From an uncultured Phycisphaerae bacterium (GTDB taxonomy: Bacteria; Planctomycetota; Phycisphaerae; UBA1845; Fen-1342), in contig CALGJV010000017.1 in NCBI GenBank assembly GCA_937928595.1, forward strand, positions 128,744 through 177,027: a stretch of DNA of 48,284 nucleotides. The letters run 5' to 3'. The position numbers and the translations under genes were made by a program. Below the pieces are notes generated by a model. The model made no database searches, had not been told where the DNA came from, and worked only from the letters and a program-made list of their open reading frames with translations. Below are positions 2,701 through 8,067 of the stretch, piece after piece. Every line of letters starts with the position of its first letter. The stretch's first letter is position 1.

Positions 2701-3483
2701 ATGGTCGGATTTTGCGCCCGCCTGCTGCGTTTCGCGGCGGCCGCCCGCGTGCGGGGCGACCGCGCCGGCTACGATTTCGCGCGCGGCTTGCTTTGGGAGT
2801 GCGATGCGCGCCTGCGGCATTTCGCGGCCGGCGGGCCGCTGCGGCTGCCGATCGTGGACCTTGCGGATCTCGTCGGCAACCTCGCGCTGCCGGTGAGCGC
2901 CGCGGCGCTGCGCACCGAGGACGGCGGGGTCAGTCCGCTCGAAAGCCTGTGTCTAGCGGCGCTAGTGCGGCACCGCGCGCCCCGGCGGATCTTCGAGATC
3001 GGCACGTTCAAGGGCCGCACGACGTGCCTGTTGGCGCGGCACGCGCCGCCGGACGCCGAGCTGCTGACGCTCGACCTGCCGCCGGAGGCGGTGCCCGCGA
3101 TGGCGGTGGCGCCCACGGACGGCGACCTGCGGTACATCGCCAAGCCGCGCATCGGCGAGTGCTTTGCTGACGACCCGGCGCGCGGGCGCATCACGCAGTT
3201 GCTGGGCGACTCGCGCACGTTCGATTTCGCGCCGTACCGGGGAACGTGCGACTTCGTCTTCGTGGACGGCGCCCACAGCTACCCGTTCGTCGCCGCGGAC
3301 ACGGCCACGGCCTTCGAGCTGCTACGCCCCGGCGGGGTGATCGTGTGGCACGATTACAAGCCCGGATGTCCGGGAGTTGTGCGGGCGCTGCACGCGATTG
3401 CGGACGAACGCGCGCTGGTCGCGCTGCGGGGGACCTCACTCGCGGTGCACTGGCCGCCGGTCGGCGACGTCAGACCTTCGTGA
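2701..3483 (+). CDS. Class I SAM-dependent methyltransferase (Methyltransf_24-like)
   Basis: A 260-residue protein with the Rossmann methyltransferase core. Motif I appears as IFEIGTFKGRTT (about residues 96-107), an acidic ribose-binding position follows at LLTLDLP, and DFVFVDGAHSY (about residues 184-194) with the later GGVIVWHDYK match the cephalosporin hydroxylase/Methyltransf_24 group. The substrate cannot be told from the sequence; relatives modify sugars and secondary metabolites. The ATG at 2701 is preceded by AAGAGG. The 3' end overlaps the convergent pilB gene by 14 bases, so the two messages are antisense at their ends and no terminator can lie between them. Confidence 0.8.
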   Translation: MVGFCARLLRFAAAARVRGDRAGYDFARGLLWECDARLRHFAAGGPLRLPIVDLADLVGNLALPVSAAALRTEDGGVSPLESLCLAALVRHRAPRRIFEIGTFKGRTTCLLARHAPPDAELLTLDLPPEAVPAMAVAPTDGDLRYIAKPRIGECFADDPARGRITQLLGDSRTFDFAPYRGTCDFVFVDGAHSYPFVAADTATAFELLRPGGVIVWHDYKPGCPGVVRALHAIADERALVALRGTSLAVHWPPVGDVRPS

Positions 3484-5149
3484 CGCGCAGCACTTCCTCG
3501 GGCGTGGTGACGCCCGCGCGGGCCAGCCGCCAACCCTCCTCGCGCATCAGCACGAGGCCCTGCTGCCGCGCCACGGCTTCGAGCTGCGCGGCGGAGGCAT
3601 GCTGCAGCACCATTTCGCGCAGCTTGTCGTTCATCACCAGCAGCTCGTAAAGCGCTCGCCGGCCGGAGAAGCCCGTGCCGCGGCACTCCTTGCAACCGCG
3701 GCCGCGGTGCAGCCGTTCGCCGGGCTGGTAGGCGAAATCGGCCGGCAGCGTCTTGGGATTCTGCGGCTCGTACGCCTCCTTGCAGTGCTTGCAGATCGTC
3801 CGCACGAGCCGTTGCGCCAGAACGCCCTCGAGCGAGCTGGAGACGAGGAACGGCTCGACGCCCATGTCCAGCAGCCGGGTCGTGGCGGTCACGGCGTCAT
3901 TGGTGTGCAGGGTGCTGAAGACGAGGTGGCCCGTGAGCGACGCGTTGATCGCCACTTCGGCGGTTTCCTTGTCGCGAATTTCGCCCACCAGCACGACGTC
4001 GGGGTCGTGCCGCAGGAAGCTCCGCAGGGCCCGGGCGAACGTGAGCCCGATCTTCGGATTGATCGGCGTCTGGTTGATGCCCTCGAGGTAGTACTCGACC
4101 GGGTCCTCGATCGTCAGGATCTTGAGCTCGTCGCTCACGATCGTGCGCAGCGCCGCGTAAAGCGTGGTCGTCTTGCCGGACCCCGTCGGTCCCGTCACCA
4201 GCAGAATGCCGTGCGGGCGGTTGATGAGGTCCATGAAGACTTCGTAGGTGCGGCCCTCCATGCCCAGCTTGTGCAGGTCCAGCGCGACCGAGGTGCGGTC
4301 CAGGATGCGGAGCACGATGCCTTCGCCGAAGGTCATCGGGATGATGCTGACGCGCAAGTCAATCTCGCGGCCGTGGGCCTTGATCTTGAAGCCGCCGTCC
4401 TGCGGCAGGCGGCGCTCGGCGATGTTCAGGCTGGACAGAATCTTGATGCGGGAGACGATCGCGTTCTGGAACCGGCGGATCTCGGGCGGCACGTTCGCGA
4501 CGTGCAGGACGCCGTCCACGCGGTAACGCACGCGGAAGTCGTTCTCGAACGGCTCGAAATGGATGTCGCTGGCGCGCTGGTCGATGGCCTCGATCAGGAT
4601 CTCGTTCACGAGCTTGATGACCGAGGCTTCCTGGGCCATCTGCACGTCGAGGTCTTCGGACTCGACGTGCTGCTCGTCGATGATCTCGACGTCGCCGGAC
4701 TCCGCCACCATCTCCTGGAGAACTTCGCCGCCGACGCCGTAGAACGCCTTGATCAGCTTGTGAATCTCGGCCCGCGGCGCCAGCACCGGCTCGACCGGCA
4801 TGTTGATGCAGGTCCGAACCTCGTCCAGCGCGTACATGTTGAACGGGTCGGACGTCGCCACGCGCACGCCCTTGCCGTTCTTCGAGATCGGCATCAGGCC
4901 GTACTTGTGAATCAGCCGCGGCGGGATCAGCGCCAGCAGTTCGCGGTCGATCTCGCCCTCCCGCAACTCGACCACCGGGATCATGAGCTGCTCGCTGAAA
5001 ACCTCCAGCACATCCCGTTCGGCCACGAGCTGCATACGAATCAGAACCTGGTCAATCCGCTCGGACGGCGACGTCCGCGCGTTCATCGCCTCCGCGAGCT
5101 GCTCACGGGTAATCAGACCCTTGCTGACGAGTGCCTCGCCGATCGACAT
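3470..5149 (-). CDS. pilB: Type IV pilus / type II secretion assembly ATPase
   Basis: Cytoplasmic hexameric ATPase that drives extension of type IV pili or a type II secretion pseudopilus. The 559-residue protein has the N-terminal GspE domain (residues 1-150), the Walker A loop GPTGSGKTT at 310-318, the Asp box around 335-345, Walker B at 372-383 (DPDVVLVGEIRD) and the His box near 397-406. The zinc-binding C4 module is present at Cys443, Cys446, Cys476 and Cys479. Length and order match PilB/GspE. The retraction ATPase PilT is encoded at 41990-43126, which favours a pilus role, but no pilin, PilC or secretin gene is nearby. The start ATG 5149 gives the conserved N-terminus MSIGEALVSKGLIT. 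Confidence 0.93.
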   Translation of the reverse strand: MSIGEALVSKGLITREQLAEAMNARTSPSERIDQVLIRMQLVAERDVLEVFSEQLMIPVVELREGEIDRELLALIPPRLIHKYGLMPISKNGKGVRVATSDPFNMYALDEVRTCINMPVEPVLAPRAEIHKLIKAFYGVGGEVLQEMVAESGDVEIIDEQHVESEDLDVQMAQEASVIKLVNEILIEAIDQRASDIHFEPFENDFRVRYRVDGVLHVANVPPEIRRFQNAIVSRIKILSSLNIAERRLPQDGGFKIKAHGREIDLRVSIIPMTFGEGIVLRILDRTSVALDLHKLGMEGRTYEVFMDLINRPHGILLVTGPTGSGKTTTLYAALRTIVSDELKILTIEDPVEYYLEGINQTPINPKIGLTFARALRSFLRHDPDVVLVGEIRDKETAEVAINASLTGHLVFSTLHTNDAVTATTRLLDMGVEPFLVSSSLEGVLAQRLVRTICKHCKEAYEPQNPKTLPADFAYQPGERLHRGRGCKECRGTGFSGRRALYELLVMNDKLREMVLQHASAAQLEAVARQQGLVLMREEGWRLARAGVTTPEEVLRVTKV

Positions 5150-5406: not shown

Positions 5407-6735
5407 TCAGGTCTTGCCGACCACACGCCGAATCGCCGCCTCGAGCTGCCCCGGACTGCGCTCCTCCAGTTCGTACGTCACCCGCAGCGCCGGTTTGTTG
5501 ATCTTCAGCATGCGGCCCAGGTCGATCGGCGTGCCGATCAGCACGACGTCGCACGGCACGGCGTTGATCGTCTGCTCCAGGTCACGGATCTGCGCCGCGC
5601 CATAGCCCATCGCCGGCAGCACGTCGGTGACGTGCGTGTACTTTTCGAAAGTCGCCCGGATCGTGCCCACCGCGTGCGGCCGCGGGTCCACGATGGCGCT
5701 GGCACCAAGGCGTCGGGCCGCGATATGGCCGGCGCCGTAGCGCATCTCGCCGTGGGTCAGCGTCGGGCCGTCCTCCACGACCAGCACCCGATGGCCCCGC
5801 ACCTGGTCCGGCGCGCTGACTGTGACCGGCGAGTTCGCCTCGATGACCGTCGCCCGCGGGTTGACCTCCGCGACATTGCGAAGCACGGTCGCGACATCCT
5901 CGGGACGCGCGGTGTCCACCTTGTTCACCACCACCACGTCCGCCAGGTACAGGTTCGTCTCACCCGGGTAGTAGCGGCGCTCGTGGCCCGGCCGGTGCGG
6001 ATCGACGAGCGTGATGTGGAGGTCCGGCCGGAAGAAGGGCAGGTCGTTGTTGCCGCCGTCCCACAGCACCACGTCGGCCTCCGCCTCCGCGGCTCGCAGA
6101 ATCTTGGCGTAGTCGATACCGGCGAAGATCAGGTTGCCGGCCGTGATGTGCGGCTCGTACTCCTCGCGTTCCTCGATGGTGCACTCGTAGTGGTCGAGGT
6201 CCGCTAGCGTCGCGAAGCGCTGGCAAACCTGCTTGCGCAGGTCGCCGTACGGCATCGGGTGCCGCACCGCGGCAACACGCAGCCCGAGTTGGCGCAGAAT
6301 GCGCACGACCGCGCGCGAGGTCTGGCTCTTGCCGCACCCCGTGCGCACGGCGCACACCGCGATGACCGGCCTCGTGCTTGCCAGCATGGTGTGTCGCGGG
6401 CCAAGGACGCAGAAATCGGCGCCCGCGGCGTTCACCAGCGCGGCCTTGTTCATCACGGCCTCGTGCGGCAGATCCGAGTAGGCGATCGGCACGAGGTCGA
6501 CGTGGTGCCGGCGGATCAGGGCCGCGATTTCGCTTTCGGCGTGTATCGGAATGCCTTGTGGATAGCGCGGCCCCGCGAGTTCCGGCGGATATACGCGGCC
6601 GGCGATGTCGGGAATCTGGGCGGCCGTGAACGCGACGACCTCCACGTCGGGCTGGTCACGCCAGTACACGTTGAAGTCGTGGAAGTCACGCCCGGCGGCC
6701 CCCATGATGATGACTTTGCGGGTTCCTGCGCTCAT
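5407..6735 (-). CDS. GTPase of the cyclic 2,3-diphosphoglycerate synthase family (COG2403-like)
   Basis: A 442-residue protein. The N-terminal third (KVIIMGAAGRDFHDFNVYW) is a Rossmann-like domain typical of this family. A P-loop follows near residues 129-140 (AVRTGCGKSQTS), and VVVVNKVDTA is the guanine-specificity motif NKxD. Characterised archaeal relatives make cyclic 2,3-diphosphoglycerate, a thermoprotectant; most bacterial members have no proven function, so that role is not asserted here. The start ATG 6735 is preceded by GGAG five bases upstream; an open extension to 6852 has no similarity. A TATTAT lies about 95 bases upstream. It stands alone, divergent from the small membrane-protein cassette. 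Family assignment is firm, function open. Confidence 0.8.
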   Translation of the reverse strand: MSAGTRKVIIMGAAGRDFHDFNVYWRDQPDVEVVAFTAAQIPDIAGRVYPPELAGPRYPQGIPIHAESEIAALIRRHHVDLVPIAYSDLPHEAVMNKAALVNAAGADFCVLGPRHTMLASTRPVIAVCAVRTGCGKSQTSRAVVRILRQLGLRVAAVRHPMPYGDLRKQVCQRFATLADLDHYECTIEEREEYEPHITAGNLIFAGIDYAKILRAAEAEADVVLWDGGNNDLPFFRPDLHITLVDPHRPGHERRYYPGETNLYLADVVVVNKVDTARPEDVATVLRNVAEVNPRATVIEANSPVTVSAPDQVRGHRVLVVEDGPTLTHGEMRYGAGHIAARRLGASAIVDPRPHAVGTIRATFEKYTHVTDVLPAMGYGAAQIRDLEQTINAVPCDVVLIGTPIDLGRMLKINKPALRVTYELEERSPGQLEAAIRRVVGKT

Positions 6736-7025: not shown

Positions 7026-7265
7026 ATGCGGAGTCGTGTTGCGCACGTCCGGCGTTGGTTGTCGGCCACGCTCATCTGTGGAAGCGTGCTCGTCGCACCG
7101 GCGGCGGCGCAGTCCGGCGAGGAAGAGAAGGGGCCGTTCCGCGAGCCGGGCATCACGTACATGGAATACTCCAAACCGTACATCCAGTGGCTGGCCGGCG
7201 CCTTGATTATCGCCGCCTGCCTGCTGATCGCCTTCAAGAACCCTCACCGGTCGCACTTGGACTAG
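7026..7265 (+). CDS. Small signal-peptide/membrane protein, first gene of cassette
   Basis: A 79-residue protein of unknown function. It begins with a positively charged stretch and a signal peptide that could be cut after APAAAQ (about residue 29). A short acidic linker (SGEEEKG) leads to GITYMEYSKPYIQW, then one membrane helix (about residues 54-70) and a short basic cytoplasmic tail ending KNPHRSHLD. Such a tail and the YMEYSKPYIQW motif look like family landmarks. An in-frame GTG at 6972 would add 18 residues; ATG 7026 fits the signal peptide better. It is followed by two more small membrane-anchored proteins on the same strand with gaps of 70 and 15 bases, so it probably forms an operon with them. 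Confidence 0.7.
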   Translation: MRSRVAHVRRWLSATLICGSVLVAPAAAQSGEEEKGPFREPGITYMEYSKPYIQWLAGALIIAACLLIAFKNPHRSHLD

Positions 7266-7335
7266 CGGCAGGTGGCAGGGGGGATCGGCTGCGGGGCCGG
7301 TCCCGAACCTGGTTCCGCATGACAGGAGCCCGCCC

Positions 7336-7635
7336 ATGCGACGCGCGTCGTTCTGGCTTGCCGCGCTCGTCTGTCTCAACCTGGTCCTGTTGACCGGGGT
7401 GCTGATCGTGGGAACAGCTCCGCGAACCGCGCTGGCCCAGAGCAGCCCGGCGGCCGGCACGACCAGCAACTACGTGGTCGTCAGCGGGCAGGTGCAACGC
7501 GGCCTAGACGTGCTGTACCTGCTCGACGCCCGCGAGCGGGCACTCCATGCCTTCTTCTTCCGCAAGGGGACGCGCGACATCATCTGGGGCGGAATGCGGT
7601 CGCTTGAGGCCGATTTCCGGAACAACCGCGACTAG
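7336..7635 (+). CDS. Small membrane-anchored protein with one propeller-like repeat, copy 1
   Basis: A 99-residue protein of unknown function. Residues 5-27 form a membrane anchor or signal peptide, possibly cut after ALAQ. The remaining part holds one unit of about 50 residues starting NYVVVSGQVQ and continuing with VLYLLDARERALHAFFF. This unit aligns with the one in the next gene (DYIMVTQQV, VIDAAARQMVYYVF), so the two are paralogues. The pattern resembles one blade of a beta-propeller, but only one unit is present per protein. ATG 7336 follows ACAGGAG at a suitable distance. It shares an operon with its neighbours. No enzyme motif is visible. Confidence 0.7.
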   Translation: MRRASFWLAALVCLNLVLLTGVLIVGTAPRTALAQSSPAAGTTSNYVVVSGQVQRGLDVLYLLDARERALHAFFFRKGTRDIIWGGMRSLEADFRNNRD

Positions 7636-7650
7636 CCTGGAGGCGGTGCC

Positions 7651-8067
7651 ATGTCTCGGACAACCAGCGCTCAGACTCATCGAGACGTACACGCCGGCGA
7701 CCTACCGCAGTCCGCACCTGTCAATCCGGCAGCGCCGAGCGCGCTGGACTCGCGCACTTTCGCGATTGGCGTCCTGAGCGTCACCGCGTGCGTGCTCTTC
7801 GTCGGCTTGGTCCTGCTCGCCGCCGCACCGCCGCAACCCGCGCACGCCGCCGCCCAGAACGACCGCGCCGGCGACTACATCATGGTGACACAGCAGGTCT
7901 CGGACTCGACCGAGGTCGTCGGCGTCATCGACGCGGCCGCACGCCAGATGGTCTATTACGTGTTTGACCCGAACCGCGAGACGATCGAGTTCGTGGCGCG
8001 GGTGCCGCTCGACCAGATGCCCAGCCCGCAGCCGCGGGAACCCGAGCCGCGTCCGCGTCGGCGCTAG
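7651..8067 (+). CDS. Small membrane-anchored protein with one propeller-like repeat, copy 2
   Basis: A 138-residue paralogue of the preceding gene. It has a 35-residue cytoplasmic N-terminal extension rich in Thr, Pro and Ala, one membrane helix (about residues 37-59), then the repeat unit at about residues 74-122 (GDYIMVTQQV, VVGVIDAAARQMVYYVFD). The tail after residue 123 is Pro/Arg/Glu rich (PREPEPRPRRR). The start ATG follows GGAGG with good spacing, only 15 bases after the previous stop. Function is unknown. The pair probably acts at the inner membrane with the repeat unit facing outward; this topology is inferred from the N-terminal charges. Confidence 0.7.
   Translation: MSRTTSAQTHRDVHAGDLPQSAPVNPAAPSALDSRTFAIGVLSVTACVLFVGLVLLAAAPPQPAHAAAQNDRAGDYIMVTQQVSDSTEVVGVIDAAARQMVYYVFDPNRETIEFVARVPLDQMPSPQPREPEPRPRRR

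Follow-up and report, generated by a model that had tools for sequence, protein, structure and literature searches.

A conserved, unannotated gene triad of the Phycisphaerae, two of whose proteins share a unit predicted to be four-stranded, as candidate subunits of an envelope complex

The closest described counterparts of the proteins reported here are the propellers, whose blades (PROPPIN/WD40, DPP IV and NHL among them) are antiparallel meanders of four strands and about 45-50 residues. Known propellers are described as holding 4-12 blades, almost always in one chain (PMC6805158), and it has been proposed that they arose from single blades (PMC9218822, PMC6805158). Designed fragments of the Pizza and WRAP type are self-assembling blocks of fewer blades, such as Pizza2, a two-blade designed block that trimerises into a six-bladed propeller (PMC7337062). 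Section 6 of PMC6805158 reports that single WD40 blades failed to fold, while the abstract of the same paper counts one-bladed blocks among those giving oligomers; the designed fragments it describes yielded no hetero-oligomers, and by the inference of the Pizza authors a folding nucleus takes two repeats or more (PMC7337062).

The locus considered here lies in a stretch of planctomycete DNA of 48,284 nucleotides, referred to as the window, and comprises three small genes, g1, g2 and g3. In contrast to the known propellers, g2 and g3 carry one unit per chain together with a hydrophobic helix, and in contrast to the designed Pizza and WRAP fragments their units are natural, unlike each other and placed behind that helix. 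The features of the locus are as follows.

3470-5149, - strand: T2SSE/MshEN ATPase, upstream of the triad, 1.9 kb from g1
5407-6735, - strand: 442-aa P-loop protein, upstream of the triad, with a cobW match just above the cut-off
7026..7265, + strand: g1, 79 aa; signal-like N-terminal segment ending in AxAQ, short linker, C-terminal hydrophobic segment, tail KNPHRSHLD
7236..7262, + strand: C-terminal tail of g1, 9 residues, K71-D79
7336..7635, + strand: g2, 99 aa; hydrophobic helix followed by one unit predicted to be four-stranded
7342..7413, + strand: hydrophobic helix of g2, residues 3-26; N15 and L18 invariant in 31/31 class rows
7468..7623, + strand: unit of g2, residues 45-96; predicted four strands and a short helix
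7651..8067, + strand: g3, 138 aa; g2 paralogue
7750..7824, + strand: hydrophobic helix of g3, residues 34-58
7870..8016, + strand: unit of g3, residues 74-122

The cassette of three genes that a sequence-only reading had placed at 7026-8067 is indeed there, as three open reading frames running head to tail on the + strand. Each has a GGAG 7-8 nt 5' of its ATG start, and the third-position GC of 0.83-0.86 across the three is high, as in coding DNA. On the 3' side the opposite strand encodes a CxxCxxCC protein and a phosphofructokinase. In 8 of the 10 family genomes with long stretches the P-loop gene and the triad are divergently arranged (manual count).

The relationship between g2 and g3 can be followed from their motifs, N45-Y-V-V-V-S-G-Q-V and then L-D-A-R-E-R in g2, D75-Y-I-M-V-T-Q-Q-V and then I-D-A-A-A-R in g3, through a two-sequence BLASTP comparison (E 4e-4) to profiles. 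Family profiles of the two proteins, with the hydrophobic helix included, align at P 97.3 and E 2e-11; with the unit alone, the class profiles give P 98.7 and E 2e-16 over 54 columns and the family profiles P 82 and E 1e-5, and none of 60 column-permuted controls matched the class unit score. On sequence comparison, then, the units of g2 and g3, of about 50 residues each, are duplicated copies of one unit. This bears out the duplication and the common unit that had been claimed earlier, with the start of the proposed motif to be corrected from [ND]-Y-V to [ND]-Y-[VI].

The triad is real, conserved and unannotated in the family libraries searched. No family in Pfam, NCBIfam or PHROGs covers g1, g2 or g3, and these searches matched the triad to no enzyme family and to no known pilus family. 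When 31 g2 and 29 g3 rows were compared with Pfam no family recurred, at most 2 rows sharing one (best E 0.0089, non-propeller); MRJP, SGL and the DCAF12 propeller were each hit by one g3 row at E 0.03-0.1, below the Pfam cut-off. Weak stray hits (DUF6498, DPM3, BRANT, PRK15326, MRJP) were set aside, as was NF041392, found with 1 of 31 g2 rows at E 0.0007. No open-access literature describing g1-g2-g3 was found by title or abstract opening.

In g1 the conserved element is the C-terminus, where R[GST]HxD is found in 52 of the 77 scored class members and KNPHRSHLD is the commonest tail among class loci (n=9). The segment YMEYSKPYIQW, to which attention had first been drawn, occupies residues 45-55; W55 excepted, it lies outside the conserved part. 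A match of g1 to the BRANT His-rich protein (NCBIfam NF047414) reaches 20.2 bits over residues 12-30 only, below the 44-bit cut-off, and a pattern search of genome contigs with the g1 peptide gave 8 loci, all planctomycete and from close relatives only.

How widely is this arrangement distributed? Homologues in relatives were found in the family, class and phylum searches alike. The window g2, used as query, has a match in 22 of 27 family genomes, including 13/13 of the best-quality ones; within the class, 196 of 298 genomes were matched by the family profile of g2 and 231 by the class profile. In the phylum sample 135 of 392 genomes match, of which, by manual count, 31 belong to the class of the window, whose own genome is among them, and 104 to other classes. 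The listed class genomes of the families f17, f19, f21 and f23 gave no match to the class profile, which counts against the reading of the triad as one complex that is developed below; four f19 genomes were weakly matched by the family profile (E 1.5e-5 to 9e-4).

The order g1-g2-g3 is kept in 22/22 family loci, the window genome included. Across the class the g2-g3 pair is found in 81 of 82 loci (80 genomes; loci chosen for a g2 match), the one lacking it, L153, being a contig end, and the g1 profile gives a hit of at least 10 bits upstream of the pair in 77 of the 82, so that the proposed three-gene order is upheld. These counts are to be read with the loci having been selected by a match to g2 or U0 (a related gene described below) and with profiles A5-A7 and A10 having been built from some of them. 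Thus 17 of the 82 loci supplied a row to the g1 profile, and g1 was found in 17/17 there; among pair-bearing loci with no row in it, g1 lies upstream in 60 of 64. Elsewhere in the same loci, hits of at least 10 bits number 4 in 175, one of them a second g1-like gene in L157. A scored g1 is absent from L059, L134, L156 and L157, L134 showing a g1 hit in a separate locus reading. In L157 (G092) the g2-g3 pair occurs twice in tandem, and a g1-like gene separates the two.

Neighbouring genes are less constant. Upstream of g1 a PD-(D/E)XK-like gene occurs in 34 of 60 class loci and hisS in 22, and bioB lies downstream of the triad in 17 of the 60; the hisS label comes from a Pfam match, and the PD-(D/E)XK and lipoprotein labels are our own reading of the sequence. 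The order hisS, PD-(D/E)XK-like gene, g1, g2, g3 recurs in many loci, from which it might be supposed that the triad forms one functional set with histidyl-tRNA synthetase and the PD-(D/E)XK-like protein. This is very improbable, for those parts are separate from the triad in the window's family and the products would be expected in different compartments. The PD-(D/E)XK-like gene is present in 24 of 27 family genomes and in the window genome lies on contig C4, away from the triad, and the neighbourhood was set aside as a guide to triad function on account of this separation. Since the neighbours vary across loci, it is the triad itself that is the part staying together. The PD-(D/E)XK-like protein, of about 176-192 aa (L073:7749-8276, L070:9482-10015, L061:8024-8599 and, in the window genome, C4:66230-66718), had no Pfam match in three tested sequences.

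The unit also has a history outside the class, where 40 loci were read, 9 of them from the family f50 and 31 carrying a single-unit gene, termed U0. Directly behind U0 an HTH gene is found in 27 of the 31; the HTH profile includes a row from 8 of the 31, with the gene present in 8/8 of these and in 19 of the remaining 23. It is absent in L125, L175, L180 and L184. Two tandem single-unit genes with no HTH neighbour, outside the window's class, were observed in L125 (G310) and L180 (G328). A TM segment is predicted by hydropathy in 26 of the 27 partner proteins, the exception being in L181. With its HTH_17-like domain (below the Pfam cut-off), acidic linker and C-terminal TM segment, the U0 partner resembles the HTH-TM one-component regulators described in PMC10269533, a likeness that concerns this partner and not the triad. 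Behind the HTH gene, L119 and L120 encode OmpA-family proteins. Within the window's family 23 of 27 genomes have the HTH domain, all but one of them in a single copy, and 15 loci from 14 genomes (the window genome being counted twice) have U0 just upstream of it, the U0 profile score being weak in some of these (E 2e-4 to 0.4), where position and sequence agree. The window genome holds this set on contig C19:

L214:7564-8016: U0, third paralogue of the unit
L214:8052-8957: HTH-acidic-linker-TM protein
L214:9046-9843: OmpA-family lipoprotein-like protein

Sets related to this one recur across the phylum, and U0 is nameless in the libraries searched. To judge by profile similarity, the unit is spread phylum-wide, and the window genome carries the U0 module in addition to g1-g2-g3.

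The f50 family presents the unit in a further form, as one chain with two units behind one helix in 9/9 loci, and an HTH gene behind the unit gene in 0/9. Unit 1 is recognised by g2 at P 97.1, and unit 2 by g2 at P 92.6 and by g3 at P 83.2, with 0/60 permuted controls in each comparison. A tree of 87 units, drawn from 59 columns and with few supported forks, groups the f50 units in first position with g2 and those in second position with g3 (SH-aLRT 92), the same order as that of g2 and g3 in the triad. Units 1 and 2 of f50 show no direct recognition of each other (P 0.5, E 0.11), and this too counts against the complex.

A role beside pili would be suggested by the surroundings of U0. By manual count 19 of the 31 other-class loci have pilus-motor-like genes (T2SSE, T2SSF) upstream and 17 have dnaG downstream, with neighbour labels taken from Pfam on the L118 set (T2SSE, T2SSF, HisKA, CNNM, FGE, RrnaAD, DnaG, sigma-70); a typical order is pilus-motor-like genes, histidine kinase, two CNNM genes, U0 and HTH. 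Taken with the T2SSE/MshEN ATPase near g1, this could make the unit family an accessory of type IV pilus-like machinery. Such a role is improbable, however, in that the U0 clusters also hold rpoD and ksgA beside dnaG and the adjacency may be operon history, and in that in L120, L121, L128, L132 and L190 the stretch read has U0 and its HTH gene but no pilus gene. In the other 10 long stretches of the family (L071, L072, L075-L082) no T2SSE/MshEN ATPase was flagged close to the triad, and no PilB-, PilT- or PilC-like gene was flagged beside the triad in the 68 other long Phycisphaerae stretches.

What, then, is the fold of the unit? AlphaFold2 models of g2 and g3 were built with nine sequences. 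For g2 the model has a helix at residues 3-26, strands at 46-52, 57-64, 69-76 and 82-89 and a helix at 90-96 (pLDDT 76.1, pTM 0.46); for g3 it has a helix at 34-58 and strands at 69-73, 76-82, 88-94, 99-106 and 111-119 (pLDDT 75.1, pTM 0.39). Both models thus show, at moderate confidence, the four-stranded antiparallel meander that characterises a blade, as had been anticipated; that their confidence is moderate (pLDDT 76 and 75) counts against the complex. With VIA-align the top structural matches of g2 are for the most part single blades from propellers, namely WIPI4 (Z 6.8 over 52 residues, 1.9 A), Atg18 (6.5), DPP IV (5.8) and Hsv2 (5.6), as well as DPP6, DPP10, Sec12 and Nup133, all of them weak (Z <=6.8), whereas those of g3 are mixed, with the non-propeller 5hal first (Z 6.8) and WIPI4 next (5.9). 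All of these lie below Z 8, where a match may reflect a common arrangement. Another small protein, YmzC of Bacillus subtilis (3kvp), titled a precursor, aligns 43 residues to the g2 unit at Z 5.8 and 1.7 A, with 0% identity. Among PDB sequences the g2 class profile A5 finds Pizza6 as its best match (E 0.0022 summed over repeats, no single stretch being significant), and the family profile A2, the g3 profile A6 and the U0 profile A11 give only insignificant PDB rows, with Pizza6 not among them.

The models make a propeller blade a plausible reading of the unit, and of the single-blade look first ascribed to it the blade-like sheet stands in the models, but the unit matches no propeller family and its structural matches are weak. 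The competing possibility is a four-stranded meander, other than a propeller blade, that pairs face to face in a simple dimer or sandwich. Foldseek gave no significant match, its best E being 0.72 for g2 and 0.14 for g3; the Z values are within the range of common arrangements, with a non-propeller heading the g3 matches; and pairing, whether of g2 with g3 or within a two-unit chain, fits a dimer as well as a ring. Set against this are the many single blades among the top g2 matches and the detection of Pizza6 by the g2 class profile, and the dimer or sandwich is given somewhat less than an even chance.

The relationship of the units to the membrane allows two readings as well. Each of the three proteins has a hydrophobic segment that is membrane-like or signal-like, with one helix each in g2 and g3. 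Behind that helix, an AxA is found in the linker in 76 of 80 g2 rows, where 44.6 would be expected from shuffled linkers, and in 66 of 79 g3 rows, where the expectation is 30.3; the linker alanines themselves are conserved, A34 in 25/29 g2 rows, and A64 in 25/29 and A66 in 27/29 g3 rows. A hydrophobic segment followed by AxA is a feature of Sec substrates of signal peptidase I, and both g2 and g3 have it, so the units may be cut free. It may be, therefore, that signal peptidase releases them as soluble periplasmic proteins and that only g1 stays in the membrane, a possibility that we rate as appreciable and still below even odds. The strictest g2 columns, N15 and L18 (31/31), sit within the helix, which is odd for a discarded signal peptide and argues for a retained TM helix, and AxA is at the shuffled level in the other classes (13/28 against 12.3) and in f50 (4/8 against 3.2). 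Of the proposal that the units are tied to a membrane helix, the hydrophobic helix is confirmed for g2 and g3, while the AxA site leaves room for release.

The reading that we favour, with a probability of about one half, is that the products of the triad are subunits of a single small complex in the cell envelope; this would be an additional, class-specific copy of an older U0 module and would act as scaffold or sensor. In such a complex g1 would sit in the inner membrane and expose its conserved 9-residue tail to the cytoplasm, and on the outer face the unit of g2 would pair with that of g3. This g2-g3 pair would be the building block, made as a single chain in another planctomycete family, f50, and such pairs may in turn associate, perhaps closing a ring. 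The older envelope module would consist of U0, the HTH-membrane protein and the OmpA-like lipoprotein, with the triad as its extra copy in the class; in the loci read, triad and U0 module lie unlinked, so a shared role would follow from homology. In its scaffold or sensor role the complex would be expected to link the periplasm with the cytoplasmic side, and not to be an enzyme.

A more specific version of the envelope complex has g2 and g3 as subunits of one blade per chain that close into a hetero-oligomeric ring, within a phylum-wide system of U0, HTH-TM protein and OmpA-like lipoprotein. For instance, three g2-g3 pairs would supply six blades above the inner membrane, with the helices and g1 giving the ring its organisation. 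By analogy with Pizza2, whose trimerisation yields six blades, a ring of g2 and g3 is possible. The failure of single WD40 blades to fold, the missing designed hetero-oligomers and the two-repeat nucleus argue against an easy ring, and we hold this full version to be unlikely; a g2-g3 pair or a two-unit chain could itself provide the nucleus of at least two repeats.

Planctomycetes divide without FtsZ, and in Planctopirus limnophila 151 of 748 essential genes are of unknown function (both as given in PMC10632474), and a conserved, unnamed, phylum-wide putative envelope module represents a concrete target in this setting. If the ring proves true, the triad would give the proposed origin of propellers from single blades, tested so far with designed fragments (PMC9218822, PMC6805158), a system found in nature, and would be a living counterpart of the proposed single-blade propeller ancestor.
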